From the NCBI GenBank assembly GCA_027622275.1, contig JAQBZB010000001.1, forward strand, positions 58,175 through 122,174: 64,000 bases of DNA. Direction: 5' to 3'. Of this stretch, positions 21,073-56,724 are shown in pieces; the stretch's first letter is position 1, and every line of letters starts with the position of its first letter. The stretch comes from Planctomycetota bacterium (lineage in GTDB: Bacteria > Planctomycetota > Planctomycetia > Pirellulales > Pirellulaceae). The notes under the pieces were generated by a model. It searched no databases. It saw only the letters and a list, made by a program, of their open reading frames with translations, and had not been told where the DNA came from. A program made the position numbers and the translations under genes.

Positions 21073-21153
21073 GTGAGCGGTGCGGCGCTAGCCGCCGGTT
21101 TTTCAGGTTCAACGTCGATTCGAAGAACCGGTGGCTAGCGCCATGCCGCTCAC
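21073..21153. repeat. Inverted repeat overlapping the ftr stop codon
   Basis: Arms of about 30 bp (21073-21102, 21123-21153) contain the GGCGCTAGCC core shared with 1713-1785. The right arm begins, on the minus strand, with GTGAGCGG and supplies the TGA stop of ftr. Confidence 0.8.
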
Positions 21154-22055
21154 AATAGTTCGCGAAGATGGAAGTGGAACTTGCCGAGTTTGCCGCCGTA
21201 GTTGCCGGCGGTGATGGCCACGATACCTTCACCGACCGCCGCGTAAAGGAGGGTTTTCATGCCGGTCGCGACCGCCGCTTCGTCGATGCCATCGAGTACG
21301 ATTTCGTAGACGCAGTTGACGCCGTCGTGCAGCTTGGTTTCCACGCGGCCGCGCAGCGTCGGGCAATAGGCGTCGGCCGTGGAAGCGGGCAGGCCGCTGT
21401 AGCGTGAACCGACTTTACTGCCGCTTCGCGCGACGCCTCCCGGAAACGGAGCGATCACGCCCTGGCAGGGCGAAACGGCTTCGATCGCACGGCGCACAGC
21501 GGCAAGTCCCGTCGGCATGTCGATGGATTGTACGATCACGTTTCCGCCCGCCACTCCCTTCTCGATGCCAACCCGATCTTCGACCAGAAACTCGCCGTCC
21601 ATTACGGGCACACGCCAGTAGCGACGCCCTTCGAGGAGCTTACTCTTTTGAAAACCGTCGCCGAAGAAGCGGATGTTCTTGCCGAGTGCAACTCGCGTTT
21701 CCGCGGCGGGAAGCCCATCGAAAACCGCGGTCGTCGGACAAGTCATGACACATTGGCCGACGCGATTGACCAGCGCCTTGCCAACCGCTTCGGGAGAGAA
21801 GCCAAAGACCAGCACGCTGGCACCGACGCGACCATCGGGCGTCGCGTCCGCGGCGAGCATCTGTTCGATGCCCGTCTCCGCGTCGCAGGCGATCACGGAC
21901 GAACTGTAACCGGTCAATTCACGCAAGGCGGCGTCGAGCCAATGTTCGTCGTGGGCCGTGATGCACAGCCGGGCATAGACCATGCGGAACGCTTCCGCAA
22001 ACGTGTCTTCGATGGTGGTGTCGCCGAGTTTCAACGAAAATCCTTTCGGAGTCAT
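21150..22055 (-). CDS. ftr: Formylmethanofuran:H4MPT formyltransferase
   Basis: A 301-residue Ftr (FhcD in bacteria), which transfers a formyl group between methanofuran and tetrahydromethanopterin in the archaeal-type C1 pathway found in methylotrophs and Planctomycetes. The start (TTIEDTFAEAFRMVYARLCI) and the interior (SVIACDAETGIEQML, CPTTAVFDGLP) are characteristic. It is not next to the formylmethanofuran dehydrogenase genes at 46-50.5 kb, unlike the fhcCDAB operon of methylotrophs. The next gene upstream of it is unrelated. Confidence 0.96.
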   Translation of the reverse strand: MTPKGFSLKLGDTTIEDTFAEAFRMVYARLCITAHDEHWLDAALRELTGYSSSVIACDAETGIEQMLAADATPDGRVGASVLVFGFSPEAVGKALVNRVGQCVMTCPTTAVFDGLPAAETRVALGKNIRFFGDGFQKSKLLEGRRYWRVPVMDGEFLVEDRVGIEKGVAGGNVIVQSIDMPTGLAAVRRAIEAVSPCQGVIAPFPGGVARSGSKVGSRYSGLPASTADAYCPTLRGRVETKLHDGVNCVYEIVLDGIDEAAVATGMKTLLYAAVGEGIVAITAGNYGGKLGKFHFHLRELL

Positions 22056-46056: not shown

Positions 46057-46872
46057 CTACGCCGAGTTCCAAACCAGAACCTCGCCCTTGCCCGGAACCG
46101 AGGCGTCACCTGAATACAGCTCGTACGCCCCGTCGGCAGGATCACACGGGAGAGTGATACCAAGCTGCTGTAGTTGGCGCGAATAGACTTTCAGGAAGTC
46201 GGGCGTGTATTGGCAGGCATAGGAAAACGTGGGGAGGATCTGGAGCGGGACGAGCGAGATGATCGTGCCGCGGATCATCCAGGCACCGGTTCGGATCTCG
46301 GCCCCGGAGAGCAAGACGATTGTGCCGCCTTTCATCTGCAAGCCGGTAAAGTCTTTCGCCGGGCCGCCGATTACGATGGTGCCGCGTCGCATTCGCATGC
46401 CAACCTCGAGCCCCGCCGAGCCGTCCACGATGATCGTTCCGTTGCGCATACCCTTCAGGCTGCCGCGGTATCCGGCTCCGATCTGGCCGCCGCCGTTGCC
46501 ATGAACGCGGATCAGACCTCTTCTCATTTCAGCGCCGATCCAATCGCTGGCGTTGCCGTGGACTTCGATCTCGCCACCCTTCATGTAAGCGCCGAGATGC
46601 ATTCCAACCGAGCCATGCACCGTGATCCGGCCGCGCGACATGCCGCGCCCGATCCAGCGGACGCGATGCAAGTTGCCGTGCAGTTCCAGATCGTCGCTAC
46701 GTTCGCCCTCGACGTCGAAGAAGTCGTCCACGCGGCGCTGTCGCTTGCCGTGATAGACGATCTTCGACCGGATCTCGTCATTCGACAGATCGGCGAACGT
46801 GTCCGGCGAGAGCACTTCGGCTTCCAGCGGCACGGTGGGCTGTTCTTTGAGCCGGAGGATGATCTTACTCAT
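46057..46872 (-). CDS. fhcC: Formylmethanofuran dehydrogenase/transferase subunit C
   Basis: A 271-residue right-handed beta-helix subunit with the GXGXG repeat fold shared with the C-terminus of glutamate synthase. Repeats such as GSVGMHLGAYMKGGEIEVHG, GSAGLEVGMRMRRGTIVIGG and KGGTIVLLSGAEIRTGAW are plain. In the Fwd/Fhc complex it scaffolds the A and B subunits. Its start overlaps the fhcA stop by four bases (ATGA). Confidence 0.95.
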   Translation of the reverse strand: MSKIILRLKEQPTVPLEAEVLSPDTFADLSNDEIRSKIVYHGKRQRRVDDFFDVEGERSDDLELHGNLHRVRWIGRGMSRGRITVHGSVGMHLGAYMKGGEIEVHGNASDWIGAEMRRGLIRVHGNGGGQIGAGYRGSLKGMRNGTIIVDGSAGLEVGMRMRRGTIVIGGPAKDFTGLQMKGGTIVLLSGAEIRTGAWMIRGTIISLVPLQILPTFSYACQYTPDFLKVYSRQLQQLGITLPCDPADGAYELYSGDASVPGKGEVLVWNSA

Positions 46873-48503
46873 AAGTTCGGCACACAGTCACGAATGTCAG
46901 GGTTCTCCAGGCGTTCCATTTCGACCGGGTAATTCTCGAACGCCATGGTGTAACAATCTTCGAACAGCGGCTGCAGGAACTGTTCAGTTCCCGGATCGTA
47001 ATGCGGCTTGATGATGAACTCGCGTCCGTCCGGGGTGGCGCGAATCTCGCCTTCTTCGATAACGACCTCGCCGCCCTTAATCACATATCGTGGGTGACCG
47101 AACATGCGAGCCACGTCATCATCATGTTCGTAGATCACGACATCGGCATCACAACCCACGCCGAGATTGCCCTTCTGATGCAACCCGAGCGCCCGCGCCG
47201 GGCCGGCGGACATCGCGGTTGCGATCTCGTACAGCGTGTACTCGCGAACAATCTCCGGCAACGTGATCCGCTGCTTGATCTTGTCCGGCAGCTTCTTCAA
47301 GCACTCTTTGCGGAAGTCGGCACACATCAGCAACTGAATGATCTCCGGATAACGCCAGAAGCAGCCGCCGTTGGGATGATCGGTCGACAGGAAGACCTGC
47401 CACGGATTCTTGATCAACAGCAGCAGTTCCAAGCCGACCGACCACTGAATCGCATTGACCAAATTGCTGGGCCGATAGGTGTAAGGAACGATGCCGCAAC
47501 CTGTCTCGTTCTCGATGTCCAGGTTGCCCCATTTGCGTCCGGTCAGCTTATACAGCAGATGCTGCCACGGACCGTCCGCGGTGATCGTCACGGTGTCGCC
47601 GAACAGTACAGCGCCGGCGTCGGTGGTAATGTTGGGATGCGTGTTGAAGTACTCAGCGAGTTGTGCCGTCTCGGATCGCATCTCGTCCCAGTCGTCGCCG
47701 CCATAGGCGTGATACTGGGAGTGAGCGATATGCGCTCGGTGTCCTTCGAGATGTTGCAAGGTGTCGAGCGTCGTCGAAATGTTGCCGGGCGCTCCGAGGT
47801 TGTTGCAGTGCAGATGCATCGGATGCGGCAGACCCAGATCGTCGCAGATCCGTGCCAATTGCAGGATGATGTCGCCCGGGGTCAACTTGCTGTAGCCTTC
47901 GATCGACGACGTCAGCTGCTTCGCGTCTTTACCCCACTTCCACGCCGCGACGCCGCCCGGATTGACGGCTTTCACTCCGTACGACTTGGCGGCCCAGATG
48001 TACCAGGCGACGATATTCTTCGCTCGTTCGTACTCGCCGTTCTCCAGCAAGTCGAGCACGATCTCGTTGTTCGCCATTAGCACGAGAGTACTCTTATCGA
48101 CAATGGGAATGTCGCCGAGTTCTTCGTGGGTGTGTCGCGCGGAGAGTACCGGGACTGCCGCTTCGTTCACCGTCGTCCAGCCCATGCCGGCATACAGGTA
48201 ACCGGTCGCGAAGGTGGTGGGAGCCATCCCGCCGAGTCCCGAGCGGCGAGTCTGCGAGCGGATGAAGGCTTGGGTGCGGCGATGGTCTTCGGGAGTCATC
48301 GCTCGCGCGAAATTGATCGCCCCGCCCGCGACATGCGTATGCACGTCGACACCGCCCGGAAAGACGATCATGCCCGTGGCGTCGATCGTCCGACCGCTTT
48401 CGACGGCCGACACGAACTTTCCGTCAGAGACGCAAAGTTCTCGCACCTCGCCGTCGATGCCGTTCGCTGGATCGTAGACTTTGCCTCCCGTGATTCGAAG
48501 CAT
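46869..48503 (-). CDS. fhcA: Formylmethanofuran dehydrogenase/transferase subunit A
   Basis: A 544-residue amidohydrolase-type subunit with a dinuclear metal site that links formate and methanofuran to formylmethanofuran. Seen are the metal motif VDVHTHVAGG (H55, H57), the lysine candidate in GVKAVNPGG, LHCNN, the His of HIAHSQYHAYGG and the Asp of FLSTDHPNGG. Length and order fit FwdA/FhcA. It lies between fhcB (96-bp gap with a palindromic element) and fhcC. Confidence 0.96.
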   Translation of the reverse strand: MLRITGGKVYDPANGIDGEVRELCVSDGKFVSAVESGRTIDATGMIVFPGGVDVHTHVAGGAINFARAMTPEDHRRTQAFIRSQTRRSGLGGMAPTTFATGYLYAGMGWTTVNEAAVPVLSARHTHEELGDIPIVDKSTLVLMANNEIVLDLLENGEYERAKNIVAWYIWAAKSYGVKAVNPGGVAAWKWGKDAKQLTSSIEGYSKLTPGDIILQLARICDDLGLPHPMHLHCNNLGAPGNISTTLDTLQHLEGHRAHIAHSQYHAYGGDDWDEMRSETAQLAEYFNTHPNITTDAGAVLFGDTVTITADGPWQHLLYKLTGRKWGNLDIENETGCGIVPYTYRPSNLVNAIQWSVGLELLLLIKNPWQVFLSTDHPNGGCFWRYPEIIQLLMCADFRKECLKKLPDKIKQRITLPEIVREYTLYEIATAMSAGPARALGLHQKGNLGVGCDADVVIYEHDDDVARMFGHPRYVIKGGEVVIEEGEIRATPDGREFIIKPHYDPGTEQFLQPLFEDCYTMAFENYPVEMERLENPDIRDCVPNL

Positions 48504-48524
48504 GCTTGGCGATTCTCTCTTATT

Positions 48525-48597
48525 TACGTGGCCTTTCGCTCCGCGAAAGTGCTCTTCCGGTAGCCGCGCGTCCTTTCGCGGAGCGAAAGGCCACGTA
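48525..48597. repeat. Perfect paired palindrome between fhcB and fhcA
   Basis: Perfect 25-bp arms (48525-48549, 48573-48597), each itself palindromic (CTTTCGCTCCGCGAAAG type), around a 23-nt loop. It begins two bases after the fhcB stop codon. Relatives are at 3368-3393 and 14644-14697. Confidence 0.9.
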
Positions 48598-48599
48598 CG

Positions 48600-49934
48600 T
48601 TAAACCTGCGCTGCAATCATCTGCGCGCCATCGGGCATCCAGAACGGCTTCTTGGCGATCGATTCCTTGATGCGGCGAACGACCTCTTCGTCCGTGGGAT
48701 ACGGCGATTTGAGAGCCGGCTTCAACGGCAACGGAATCTCGTCCATCCGATAAGCCGTTCCCGGTGCGGAAATCCCCGCGACGGCGGTCGTGATATGCAC
48801 CCGCGACAGCTTGCTGGTATGCGTTATGTGTGGGTCCAACACGATTGTGGGAATACGAGCGAGATGATCGATCGCCGGTTGAGGCATCGTCGCGCCGGGA
48901 TCGGCTCCGATGATGAATGCCGCGTCGGCGTCGCCTCGGACCAGCACATCGACGGTCGAGAACTCGCCGGGGTTGTAACGCGGATAGCCGCGATTGAACG
49001 TGATCCCGAACGGATAACCGGTTTGCCAACGCATGACGACGTCGGCTCCCGTAACATTGCCGTGACCGCGCATCGGCATGGCGACGAATTTGGTGAAGGC
49101 GTTCATCTCGGCAGCGAGCGTCAATAGCGCGGCGGAGTTCATGTGCTTGCCCCGCGTCATCGACAATCCCATGCCAAAGAACACGCAGCCAAACTTCGCC
49201 TTCTTCATCCGCGCGACGAGATCCGTACATTGTTCCAGCGTCACGCCAGTCTCCGCAACAGCTTCCGCACTGATTTTCTGATCCTTGATCATCGCACGCA
49301 GGATCGTGATCAGTTCAAAGTCCTTACCCGGACGAACTTGCAGGAAGATGTCGGCGGCTTTGGCGCTCTTCGTCGGGCGGATATCAACCAGCACGACCGT
49401 CCGATCCTTCCGGCCATTGGGCAGGAACTTGCTCTTGGGCATCAACGCGTACTTCGTAAAATGCCGGGGGTGGCACTCCGCGGGATTGCCTCCCCAGTAA
49501 ATAATAAAATCGCCTCGGTTCTTCACTTCACCGAGCGTACAAGTGACTTTGCCACCCAACTGGGCAGCGATTTCCGTGGGACCGTGTCACAAAGATGTGT
49601 GACTGTCCAGCAGACCACCCAGCAGGTCCGCCAGGGCCACACACTCGCGTTGTGCTTCGCAGGTTGTATTGCTCATCCCGTAGACCAACGGCATGTCGGC
49701 CTCGTGCAAGTACGTCGCGGCGACTTCGATGGCTTCGTCGAGCGTCGCTTCTTTGCCATCGATCAAAGCATCGGGATACTTGCGTTCGGCGGTATGGTTA
49801 AGAAACCAAGCCGTCCCCAGCACGCACGCCTTTTTCGCTTTGACAATGCGGACGTCGTCGGCGTGCAACTCGATATCGTCACAGACACAGCCACAGAACG
49901 TACACGTCGCGTTATTTACGACAGTGAGAGTCAT
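48600..49934 (-). CDS. fhcB: Formylmethanofuran dehydrogenase subunit B, putative selenoprotein
   Basis: A 444-residue FwdB/FmdB-type subunit read through a TGA at 49587-49589 (codon 116). The N-terminal CTFCGCVCDD (C11, C14, C18) is the 4Fe-4S motif. The TGA reads x-HGPTEIAAQLGG, and in FwdB and in formate dehydrogenase FdhF the residue before HGP is the Cys or Sec that coordinates Mo/W. Both sides are in one frame with no other change (then TLGEVKNRGDFIIYWGGNP). A SECIS-like hairpin starts 18 nt downstream. Selenocysteine is therefore the best reading; a nonsense mutation is the alternative. The start has a GGAG site. sel genes are not in the window. Confidence 0.88.
49551..49568 (-). promoter_or_regulatory. 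Candidate bacterial SECIS element in fhcB
   Basis: On the mRNA a 7-bp stem (GCUGCCC pairing with GGGUGGC, including two G-U pairs) carries an AGUU loop. The stem begins 18 nt and the loop 25 nt after the UGA at 49587-49589. A G near the start of a small apical loop at this distance is what bacterial SECIS elements recognised by SelB show. No folding energy was computed. Confidence 0.7.
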
Positions 49935-49999
49935 CGCATCTCCCGTTAGTTAGATTCTTCAACCGCCGGATCGTCCGAACTGGACGGAACGAGGAACGT

Positions 50000-50161
50000 T
50001 CAGCCAAGGGCTCGGCCCTGGCATGATCCTCGTACTCGGCGCGGCATATATCGGCCTGCTTCGACTTCTTCCCACGCCGGAACCTGTTCGGTCTCGGCAG
50101 GGAGCGCGAAGTGAGGGCTGTCGGCAGCCGTCAGATCGACTTCAGGTTTTGGTTTGTTCAT
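50000..50161 (-). CDS. Small protein between fmdD and fhcB
   Basis: A 53-residue protein (MNKPKPEVDLTAADSPHF...) with an acidic first half and a conserved-looking basic end (GRYMPRRVRGSCQGRALG). An AAGGA site precedes the ATG at 50161. It begins 25 bases after the fmdD stop and is followed by fhcB after 65 bases, so it is part of the operon. It has one cysteine. The position suggests an accessory subunit or assembly factor of the formylmethanofuran dehydrogenase; this is inference. Confidence 0.65.
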   Translation of the reverse strand: MNKPKPEVDLTAADSPHFALPAETEQVPAWEEVEAGRYMPRRVRGSCQGRALG

Positions 50162-50186
50162 CGCGGGTATTCCTTCTGACACTTTC

Positions 50187-50534
50187 TTACTCGGCGGTCT
50201 CGATCCGTTCAACTTCAACTTCCCAACCCTTGGAGGTGGGCATCCCTGTCCCGTCCGTATCTCCGCCCATTAACTGGCAAGTCGGCGGGCCGTACGGAAT
50301 GAACAGCAATCCGTCAGGGACTTTCGCTTCGGTACATTGAAAGATCGCCTCACCAAACTCGGTGCTGACGCGGACCGAATCGCCGTTGGCTACCCCCAAA
50401 GATTCCATATCGGCGGCGCTGATCTCAAGGGTGGTGACAATCTTCTGGTATTCGTCGCCATATTTGCCGACATTGATCTGCGACCCTTGCTTGGCGGTCC
50501 GCATGGGGTTCAGGATAAACTTTTTGGATTGCAT
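50187..50534 (-). CDS. fmdD: Formylmethanofuran dehydrogenase subunit D
   Basis: A 115-residue molybdopterin-dinucleotide-binding domain like FmdD/FwdD and the C-terminal domain of formate dehydrogenases. Typical are the start FILNPMRTAKQGSQINVGK, GDSVRVSTEFGEAIFQ, and the VPDGLLFIPYGPPTCQLMGG ... GTGMP segment near the end. Its presence means that the complex can hold a Mo or W bis-pterin cofactor, unlike the FhcABCD of aerobic methylotrophs. I chose the ATG at 50534 to fit the family start; ATGs at 50564 and 50597 are possible. Confidence 0.92.
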   Translation of the reverse strand: MQSKKFILNPMRTAKQGSQINVGKYGDEYQKIVTTLEISAADMESLGVANGDSVRVSTEFGEAIFQCTEAKVPDGLLFIPYGPPTCQLMGGDTDGTGMPTSKGWEVEVERIETAE

Positions 50535-50605
50535 ACGGCACCATTGTAGCTGAATCCTCGCCATAACCAAATCGGTAGACGTACCAATCTCCATCACAAC
50601 GGTCT

Positions 50606-54450: not shown

Positions 54451-56028
54451 ATGAGCACCTTCAATGTCCCCGATGGCTTGGCCGAGCGATATCGGCGGCT
54501 GCAACGCTATGTTGGCTGGAGCGATGACGACGCGCGACGCATTCTTGAGGTTGCACCGCTAGCTCGCGCGTCGTTCGACGAGTTGATCGAGGATTTCTAC
54601 GCGACCATCGCGACGGAGCCGCAGGCAGCGAAAGTCATCACGGGCGGGCAGACGCAAGTCGACCGTCTCAAGGTGACTCTGTGCCGCTGGCTGGAAGAGA
54701 TGTTCCAGGGCCCGTGGTCGGGCGACTACGCCGCCGCCCGGTGGCGTGTCGGTTGGCGGCACGTCGAGATCGGCTTGGATTCCGTCTTTACCGCCGTCGC
54801 ACTTTCGCGGCTGCGAGATGGCCTGGCGCAAGCCATCGAACGGAAATGGGCCGGCACTCCAAGCGCTCTGCTGGCGACGTTGCGCTCCGTGCATCGCTTG
54901 CTCGATCTCGACTTGGCGATCATTCAAGACGCTTATGAAGGCGAGTACGTGGCGCGTCAACGTCGATCGGAACGGCAACGAAGCGAGGCAGCGTTTCGGA
55001 ATCTGGTCGAGGCGGCAGGGAGCATGATTGTGATCCTGCGGTCGGATCGCACCATCGCCTACTTCAATCCGTACGCCGAAGCACTGACTGGCTATGCTGC
55101 CTCCGCCGTCAGCGGGAAGGACTATGTCGAGTTATTCCTGCCGGAACGGGAACGATTGGGAGTGGTTGCACAGCTGGCGGCAAATCAAGCGGGCGAACCA
55201 ACGCTTGGTTATGAGAACGCGATTCGGTGTCGAGACGGAAGCGAGCGATGTCTGGTTTGGAACGCCCAGCGGCTCGATGACTTTGAGGGCAAGCCCGCCG
55301 TGTTGGCTGTCGGCCAGGACATTACCGCGCGAAAGGTCGCCGAGGAGCGAGCCCTGCAAAGCGAGCGGCTGGCAGCCATCGGCCAGACCGTAACGGGCTT
55401 GGCCCATGAAAGCCGCAATGCGTTTCAACGCAGCCAAGCTTGTCTCGAACTGCTGGCACTCGAACTCGAAGACCGTCCCGAGGAACTAGAACTCGTCTCG
55501 CGAATCCAGCGGGCGTTAGACCACCTCCACCGGCTATACGAAGAGGTGCGCGACTACGCCGCGCCGATCAAACTCGACCGTCAGCTGTGCGATTTGGCGC
55601 ACCTGTGGCGCGATGCGTGGTCTCACTTGGAATTGAGCCGAGCCGGAAAAGAAGTCGAACTCCACGAGTCAGTCGAGTGCCTCGATTTGGCCTCGCATGT
55701 CGATTGGTTTGCCCTTGGGAAAGTCTTTCGGAACATCTTCGAGAATGCGATTGCCGCGTGCTCCGAACCTGGGGAAATCTGGATCAATTGCCGCGACGTG
55801 TCGCTGGACGATCATCCGGCGATCTCCATCCGGATTCGCGACAACGGCGCGGGGATTCCGAAGGACTCACGAGGCCGAGTCTTCGACGCGTTCTATACGA
55901 CAAAGACGAAAGGGACGGGGCTTGGCATGGCGATTGCACGACGCGTTGTCGAAGCACACGGCGGCACGATCGAACTGGGCAACCCGGACGAAGGTGCTGA
56001 GTTTGTGATCGTGTTGCCGCGTTTGTAA
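54451..56028 (+). CDS. Globin-coupled sensor histidine kinase
   Basis: A 525-residue soluble kinase. About 5-165 form a sensor globin with the proximal heme His in VGWRHVEIGLD (H104), as in HemAT-type and protoglobin sensors. A PAS domain follows at about 175-295 (VILRSDRTIAYFNPYAEALTG), then the phosphoacceptor H319 in GLAHESRNAF and an ATPase domain with NIFENAIAAC, DNGAGIP and GTGLGMAI. It would sense oxygen or another gas through heme and signal to the ANTAR regulator encoded 90 bases downstream. Confidence 0.9.
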   Translation: MSTFNVPDGLAERYRRLQRYVGWSDDDARRILEVAPLARASFDELIEDFYATIATEPQAAKVITGGQTQVDRLKVTLCRWLEEMFQGPWSGDYAAARWRVGWRHVEIGLDSVFTAVALSRLRDGLAQAIERKWAGTPSALLATLRSVHRLLDLDLAIIQDAYEGEYVARQRRSERQRSEAAFRNLVEAAGSMIVILRSDRTIAYFNPYAEALTGYAASAVSGKDYVELFLPERERLGVVAQLAANQAGEPTLGYENAIRCRDGSERCLVWNAQRLDDFEGKPAVLAVGQDITARKVAEERALQSERLAAIGQTVTGLAHESRNAFQRSQACLELLALELEDRPEELELVSRIQRALDHLHRLYEEVRDYAAPIKLDRQLCDLAHLWRDAWSHLELSRAGKEVELHESVECLDLASHVDWFALGKVFRNIFENAIAACSEPGEIWINCRDVSLDDHPAISIRIRDNGAGIPKDSRGRVFDAFYTTKTKGTGLGMAIARRVVEAHGGTIELGNPDEGAEFVIVLPRL

Positions 56029-56118: not shown

Positions 56119-56724
56119 ATGGAACCACGACTTCGCATTGCAGTGGCGGACGACGAGCCGGACATGCGCGAGTACTTCGAGAAGATTCTGCCGCGCCTTG
56201 GACACGAAGTCGTCTCTATCGCGGAGACAGGTCGACAGTTGGTCGAGCATTGCGCCGCCTTGAATCCGGACCTCGTGATTACCGACATTAAGATGCCCGA
56301 TATGGATGGCATCGAAGCGGCCACGGCCATTTATCAAAAGCAAGCGGTTCCTGTTATCTTGGTCTCGGCGTTTCACAATCGCGAGCTGATCGAGCGGGCC
56401 GAGAGCAACCACATCATGGCCTATCTTGTGAAGCCCATCAAGCAGGCCGATCTCGAGCCGGCCATCGGTTTGGCGTGCAAACGCTTCGAGCAATTTGAAG
56501 CCTTACGACGCGAAACTGCGGACCTCAGGCAGGCCTTGGAAGACCGCAAGATCGTCGAGCGGGCGAAGGGCATTTTGATGCAGCGGACGGGGTTGGACGA
56601 GCAAAGTGCCTTCAAGCGGCTCCAGCGGCTTGCTAGCGACAAGAATCTGCGGATGGCCGAAATCTCGCGCACCATCCTGCTTGCGGACGAGGCATTCACG
56701 CGTGCGGCACCCAAACAGCCTTAA
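56119..56724 (+). CDS. ANTAR-domain response regulator
   Basis: A 201-residue receiver with an RNA-binding output. The receiver spans about 5-120, with the acidic pair at D11-D12, the phosphorylated D56 (LVITDIKMPDMDG) and the Lys in YLVKPIK. The ANTAR domain at about 130-190 has ERAKGILMQRTGLDEQSAF and the following helices. ANTAR proteins bind paired hairpins in mRNA leaders and prevent termination. Its partner kinase is clearly the gene upstream. Confidence 0.94.
   Translation: MEPRLRIAVADDEPDMREYFEKILPRLGHEVVSIAETGRQLVEHCAALNPDLVITDIKMPDMDGIEAATAIYQKQAVPVILVSAFHNRELIERAESNHIMAYLVKPIKQADLEPAIGLACKRFEQFEALRRETADLRQALEDRKIVERAKGILMQRTGLDEQSAFKRLQRLASDKNLRMAEISRTILLADEAFTRAAPKQP

Follow-up and report, generated by a model that had tools for sequence, protein, structure and literature searches.

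A planctomycete fwdB gene with an in-frame UGA codon and a conserved SECIS-like hairpin, and a likely second, small selenoprotein gene directly upstream

Introduction

The closest described counterpart of the locus analyzed here is the selenocysteine-containing FmdB of the planctomycete P2 (Rhodopirellula) and of Lake Washington, reported in the available part of Kim et al. 2016 (PMC4807772). The corresponding part of a 2026 review (PMC13188914) marks the family as present in bacteria and archaea, and the term planctomycet* was not found in the main text of that review. Because of these two reports, a selenocysteine FwdB in a planctomycete is not new, as the original prediction had supposed it to be, and the UGA codon of the fwdB gene described below is a further member of an already reported case. 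According to the sections of PMC4807772 at hand, the FmdB of P2 and Lake Washington is, like ours, UGA-encoded and part of a bacterial operon of the order D-B-A-C, and other planctomycetes have Gly-type homologs, as do the relatives found here. In the same sections, P2 has both Sec and Cys copies, whereas our source genome has one FwdB above the cut-off, and no small UGA gene is mentioned between D and B, where the window (the whole stretch of 64,000 nucleotides that was analyzed) contains the gene that we provisionally call fwdU. What is added here to those sections is the comparison of 80 close relatives (the best of 198), all with the UGA, together with the SECIS core conserved among them and a phylogenetic tree. 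The FmdB of the GOS selenoproteome paper was considered as well and rejected, being, in the part of that paper available, a different family and a putative regulatory protein.

Other known systems are more distant. The Sec FwdB of methanogens belongs to the same family and concerns the same column as the FwdB of the window, but the archaeal SECIS lies mostly in the 3'-UTR (PMC13188914, in its available part), whereas the one proposed for the window fwdB is inside the gene. Bacterial FdhA/FdhF have in common with FwdB the U-H-x-P motif (PMC13188914, Table 1 as available) and an in-gene SECIS of similar general form; they are, however, a different family, the enzyme of the window being a TIGR03129 member with a separate D subunit. 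The small predicted bacterial selenoproteins in the same table resemble FwdU in being short, with a single Sec and no assigned function.

The window also shares the A, B, and C subunits and the Ftr of the C1 pathway with the Fhc complex of aerobic methylotrophs. The B subunit of the Fhc complex is not known to have the metal site. Unlike it, the FwdB of the window keeps the metal-ligand position, the Fe-S cysteines, and the active-site His and Arg.

Results

The fwd operon and the UGA codon of fwdB

The features of the fwd genes in the window, all on the minus strand, are as follows:
50187–50597, minus strand: fwdD-like gene, molybdopterin dinucleotide-binding subunit (NF042908, PF01568)
48600–49934, minus strand: fwdB/fhcB, formylmethanofuran dehydrogenase subunit B, 444 codons with an in-frame UGA (TIGR03129, translation)
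49587–49589, minus strand: UGA codon 116 of fwdB, predicted selenocysteine at the W/Mo-ligand position (relatives and alignment)
49551–49568, minus strand: SECIS-like hairpin of fwdB, 7 bp, loop AGUU, UGA-to-loop distance 25 nt (fold and conservation)
46869–48503, minus strand: fwdA/fhcA, amidohydrolase subunit (TIGR03121, 677.6 bits)
46057–46872, minus strand: fwdC/fhcC subunit (TIGR03122, 262.1 bits)
21150–22055, minus strand: ftr/fhcD, formylmethanofuran:tetrahydromethanopterin formyltransferase (TIGR03119, 396.4 bits)

The partner genes of fwdB are in place, with the fwdD-like gene upstream and fwdA and fwdC downstream. The fwdD-like product scored below the cut-off of NF042908 (84.1 bits against 175) and above that of PF01568 (37.1 bits). 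The ftr gene lies outside the fwd operon on the same contig; in the source genome (9.78 Mb, 96.2% complete), Ftr is found twice and Mch once above the respective cut-offs. A scan of flanking ORFs revealed no polyferredoxin gene. Between fwdB and fwdA, at 48533–48589, is a palindromic repeat in which CTTTCGCTCCGCGAAAG occurs twice, facing each other; the window contains four copies of the 17-mer and the genome 70, and the reversed control has none. This repeat is a REP-like element inside the operon. Farther away, positions 54451–56028 encode a protoglobin-PAS-histidine kinase fusion, adjoined by an ORF (56119–56724) that looks like a response regulator.

As the original prediction had stated, the frame at 48600–49934 is open over 444 codons with TGA 116 as its sole internal stop. 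Its product matched TIGR03129 with 508.9 bits (cut-off 327.8) over residues 8–426 in a profile search, and it is the single FwdB above this cut-off in the source genome. The TGA is directly followed by His-Gly-Pro, also as predicted, and its column corresponds to the W/Mo ligand Cys118 of the archaeal FwdB 5t5i_B. Opposite codon 116, 8rja_B has Cys and 9sfi_Q an X, and among the archaeal chains of known structure that were printed in the alignment, the column holds Cys with the exception of this X. In an alignment of 10 sequences, the active-site residues H117, R289, and H291 are invariant, as are C11, C14, C18, and C37. These four N-terminal cysteines are presumably the ligands of a 4Fe-4S cluster.

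Conventional annotation cuts the gene. The ORF of the window that starts at TTG126 covers only the part of fwdB at 48600–49559, and TTG126 is a Leu codon of the SECIS-like hairpin itself. Among the 120 closest FwdB relatives listed from the database, 93 are fragments of 300–325 residues, many of them starting at a codon within the SECIS, and 77 of these 93 have 319 residues, like the ORF of the window from TTG126.

A conserved SECIS-like hairpin inside fwdB

The hairpin that had been predicted 18 nt downstream of the TGA, a 7-bp stem with an AGUU loop, was present in the predicted fold (18 nt, GCUGCCC-AGUU-GGGUGGC). That part of the proposal stood; a search for a known SECIS and the folding energy did not add to it, as an Rfam scan of 48000–50200 returned no SECIS and only two chance miRNA matches, and the energy was ordinary (z = 0.99, with 162 of 200 shuffles folding at least as well). 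Because neither gave support, the case for a SECIS in fwdB rests on conservation.

Scanning GTDB species genomes gave 198 relatives, of which the best 80 were kept. These 80 loci, which are kin to one another, were picked with a query alignment consisting of UGA forms. Together with the window they gave 81 aligned fwdB genes, in which CAG125 and TTG126 were the only synonymous-invariant codons out of 257 testable. The two codons make up the hairpin tip, i.e., its loop with the stem bases next to it. Although TTG accounts for 23% of the Leu codons in the 81 genes, TTG126 is invariant in all of them. All 81 sequences have AGTT as the loop; all seven pairs form in 72 and six in the remaining nine. 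Compared with the bacterial SECIS criteria of the review PMC13188914, the hairpin has the AGTT loop, a 7-bp stem, and a distance of 25 nt, with a folding energy at or below −9.6 kcal/mol in 81 of 81. In seven loci of the nearer Cys clade, three to six of the seven pairs form and the AGTT loop occurs in none.

Selenocysteine machinery

The source genome contains the complete set of genes whose presence the original prediction called for: a tRNA-Sec (67 bits, also found by ARAGORN as tRNA-SeC with anticodon tca), SelA (567.8 bits), SelB (344.2 bits), and SelD (276.5 bits). The distribution across genomes was evaluated in 41 genomes, namely all those listed with a best FwdB match of E 1.6e-70 or better, out of 311 matching. 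All 10 genomes with a UGA FwdB had SelB above the cut-off, compared with three of the 31 without it (Fisher p 2.6e-7, ignoring kinship), and for SelA the counts were 10 of 10 and four of 31 (Fisher p 8.9e-7, again ignoring kinship), 11 of the 31 non-UGA genomes being classed by the lack of an internal stop and not by the residue. Among the close relatives, SelB was above the cut-off in four of the five genomes checked. In the fifth, that of locus L129 (G393:C90:12378-14331), SelB is in two adjacent pieces in different frames, which is probably an assembly frameshift.

These distributions also bear on whether another amino acid is inserted at the UGA of fwdB, either by Trp suppression or by near-cognate read-through. 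Some FwdB relatives carry Ser, Thr, Gly, or Arg at this position, and the Sec reading is itself a prediction. The column is Cys in the archaeal chains (X in 9sfi_Q) and Cys in the bacterial outgroups, however, and the association of SelB with the UGA form given above likewise speaks against it, so that we consider this explanation highly improbable. Judged from sequence, selenocysteine appears by far the best reading of UGA 116. Conservation and machinery together strongly support both parts of the prediction, a Sec as the W/Mo-ligand residue and a bacterial-type SECIS within fwdB.

Distribution of fwdB and origin of the Sec form

A TIGR03129 match above the cut-off was found in 25 of 392 sampled Planctomycetota genomes, and the 30 loci of this phylum sample have TGA (10), Cys (nine), Gly (five), or Ser (one) at column 116, or a deletion (five). 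Among the best 80 of the 198 relatives, TGA occupies the column in 80 of 80 loci, with no further internal stop; three of these records are titled Acidobacteria (L118, L129, and L130). The original prediction was to be refuted by close relatives with neither Cys nor Sec in this column, and this applies in part, since there are FwdB relatives at 60–67% identity with Ser, Thr, Gly, or Arg. Database relatives with Cys include P0004, P0015, and P0068, among others. Two genomes, G266 and G307, have a second copy above the cut-off, without the UGA, in addition to the UGA FwdB, which suggests two parallel complexes.

The gene order D-B-A-C is complete in 52 of the 80 loci (E 1e-5), the others being without one or more of the genes. 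Some of the incomplete loci are at contig ends, and L111, L113, L115, and L129 are without A or C despite 5 kb of downstream sequence. In L064 and L087, fwdC directly follows fwdB and the locus yielded no fwdA, while in L113 and L115, fwdU and fwdD are more than 1 kb from fwdB.

A tree of 67 FwdB sequences was built with the Sec column removed, including 22 of the 23 long database proteins fetched. The bacterial UGA forms make up one clade (99.5/100), with P0001, P0003, and P0005 nested inside. This clade lies within the Ser/Thr/Gly/Cys relatives, and those within the bacterial Cys enzymes (98.9/98). The Ser, Thr, Gly, and Arg relatives fall outside the Sec clade, except for P0003 and P0005 (Arg), which are inside on long branches. 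In P0001, P0003, and P0005, the Sec motif is lost by deletion, by a change to Arg, or in a rewritten motif; they possibly represent enzymes that lost the metal site or annotation artifacts. Of the archaeal sequences in the tree, only 9sfi_Q was taken as Sec (its record has an X), and it falls apart from the bacterial Sec forms. A cross-domain Sec clade uniting it with the bacterial UGA forms was rejected (AU p 1.2e-58, with P0001, P0003, and P0005 removed).

Since the UGA clade is inside Cys enzymes and the grouping with 9sfi_Q is rejected, parsimony favors a gain within Bacteria, in which the Sec form would have arisen from a Cys enzyme rather than been inherited from methanogens. An ancestral Sec with several losses would also be compatible with a tree in which the archaeal Sec forms are sampled by one sequence. 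Wells et al. (PMC7331816), in the part of the paper available, favor an ancestral Sec, and their set there includes no bacterial FwdB.

fwdU, a small gene with a second UGA

Directly upstream of fwdB is a second gene with an in-frame UGA, of which the original prediction made no mention. Its features, again on the minus strand, are:
49946–50161, minus strand: fwdU (provisional name), 71 codons with an in-frame UGA, stop TAA, located between fwdD and fwdB
50000–50002, minus strand: UGA codon 54 of fwdU, predicted second selenocysteine (conservation, mixed stops of the neighboring genes)
49972–49986, minus strand: SECIS-like hairpin of fwdU, CGUCC-AGUUC-GGACG, UGA-to-loop distance 18 nt (covariation in relatives)

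Cut at the UGA, fwdU would be annotated as a hypothetical protein of 53 aa. The gene is present in 77 of the 80 loci (tblastn, E up to 0.01; best 80 of 198 relatives). The three without it are L094, which has 193 nt of contig sequence ahead of fwdB, and L100 and L102, in which fwdD was not found either. In the phylum sample, fwdU accompanies nine of the 10 UGA loci, the tenth, L031, being cut by the contig end; it was not found within 1.5 kb of any of the 20 loci with Cys or other residues, of which only four had a detected fwdD and thus a visible D-B gap.

Upstream of the UGA, most members contain the core W-x-E-[VI]-x-x-G-R-[YF]-M-P-R-R-x-R-G-S-x-x-G-R-x-L-G. In the last 24 codons before the TGA, the differences by codon position are 0.18, 0.18, and 0.58, and the median dN/dS of the upstream core is 0.13 (250 usable random pairs). 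The core of fwdU evolves as a protein under purifying selection. The predicted structure of FwdU is poor (pLDDT 64.3).

The site itself is TGA in 78 of 78 sequences (77 loci and the window). Among the real stops of the same loci, omitting loci in which the gene was not found or runs off the end, TGA accounts for 35 of 73 in fwdD, 31 of 78 in fwdB, 36 of 61 in fwdA, and 36 of 55 in fwdC. The stops reached by fwdU after read-through are mixed as well (TGA 37, TAA 27, TAG 14; n = 78). The second codon after the TGA is Phe in 78 of 78, written as TTC in 40 and TTT in 38, the fourth is Val in 57, and the fifth Pro in 69. That both UGAs are sequencing errors or signs of decayed genes might be suggested by single in-frame stops seen in one assembly, but the comparison of relatives refutes it, with TGA in 80 of 80 other fwdB records and in 77 of 77 of fwdU and with the sequence conserved on both sides; we give it practically no credence.

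Another reading is that only fwdB is a selenoprotein gene and that fwdU truly ends at its UGA, the hairpin being a regulatory or mRNA-stability element. A profile search with FwdU listed 120 of 3402 proteins, and as called, 142 of 147 fetched database relatives of FwdU end at ...LG, exactly before the position of the TGA. The tail beyond Phe-x-Val-Pro is variable in length and sequence, and the codon-position pattern weakens past the TGA (0.32/0.17/0.50 over six codons). Against a true end stand the invariant TGA, whereas all three stop codons occur among the other operon genes; the Phe in all 78 sequences, with both codons used; the overlap of the read-through stop with the fwdB start as ATGA in five of 77 loci; and a hairpin whose spacing, together with a G-U in most loops, fits the published bacterial SECIS model (PMC13188914, as far as the available part describes it). 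We regard a true end at the UGA as quite unlikely.

Five of the database proteins run past the site. P0175 has Cys at the UGA position and continues in the same frame with TFLVPSSG, P0260 has Arg, and P0185, P0188, and P0229 have Trp. The last three are on JGI contigs of ~1 kb, and their Trp may come from code-4 gene calls.

The distance to fwdB is relevant to a further explanation, in which fwdU is mainly a selenium sensor: read-through would bring ribosomes to the fwdB start, fwdB would be translated solely when Sec-tRNA is available, and the peptide would matter little. In most loci, the read-through stop is indeed near fwdB, with a median gap of 54 nt, 11 nt before the ATG in the window, and the five ATGA overlaps (fwdB being counted from where its tblastn match begins, at residue 2 to 4 in some loci). 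In 17 of 77 loci, however, the stop and the fwdB start are more than 100 nt apart, and in two of the 17 more than 1 kb; purifying selection acts on the peptide core, as described above; and fwdB already has a UGA of its own. A role mainly as a sensor therefore seems to us unlikely, and we keep to the reading of fwdU as a likely selenoprotein gene.

The hairpin of fwdU

In the window, the fwdU hairpin starts 13 nt after the TGA and is a weak example, with 5 bp and −7.8 kcal/mol, not more stable than shuffles (z 0.47). Across the 78 sequences, a best-stem search, run without a null, found stems of 5–9 bp in 78 of 78, and the loop is GTT, GTC, or AGTTC in 69. The energy was within the bacterial SECIS criterion in 77 of 78, L117 falling outside with −7.1.

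Covariation was evaluated in 47 of 77 loci, chosen for a common register. In these, 96% of cells are paired versus 88.9% after shuffling (0 of 500 shuffles as high), a share that is raised because the 47 sequences were chosen to fit the register. Two-sided changes occur in 27 cells versus 5.7 when shuffled, again with 0 of 500 as high, and slid versions of the hairpin have at most 50% of cells paired. By pairs, five of eight have two-sided changes, and 37 of 500 shuffles do as well.

FwdU in databases and the literature

FwdU had no match in Pfam (28 members scanned, E up to 1). In NCBIfam (28 members), two families had a single matching member each (E 0.14 and 0.25), and neither is related to selenium. 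None of the selenoprotein families in the available Table 1 of the review (PMC13188914) was among the Pfam and NCBIfam models matched, a comparison that covers the families listed there with a Pfam or NCBIfam model. A PDB profile search gave one chance match (E 1.2). In the literature on selenium, Fwd, and planctomycetes, no report of a fwdU-like gene was found in the accessible parts of the papers; table S9 of Kim et al. may list one. An ISME J 2016 survey contained no occurrence of any term searched. The data suggest that fwdU is likely a second small selenoprotein gene, previously undescribed.

Discussion

Two UGA codons in adjacent genes, each followed by a SECIS-like hairpin, are very probably both read as selenocysteine, as comparative sequence evidence indicates. 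In the scheme that we propose, SelB bound to the fwdB or the fwdU hairpin would deliver Sec-tRNA to the UGA. In FwdB, Sec116 would serve as a ligand of W or Mo and perform the CO2/formate half-reaction. FwdA would then join formate to the furan coenzyme or release it there, linking the complex to Ftr and Mch of the methanopterin C1 pathway.

For FwdU, our guess from the gene position and the restriction to the clade is that it most likely serves as an accessory subunit co-produced with FwdB. A bolder proposal, which we put forward tentatively and with considerable doubt, is that FwdU is a new family working only with the Sec-Fwd, and that its read-through makes fwdB translation selenium-dependent, giving two checkpoints in series.

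If true, fwdU would add a new family to the bacterial selenoproteins, present at 77 loci in a collection with one genome per species and apparently missed because gene callers stop at the UGA; fwdB is cut likewise. The second Sec, found here only beside the selenium Fwd, would raise the question of why this form keeps a partner that was not found at the 20 loci with Cys or other residues.
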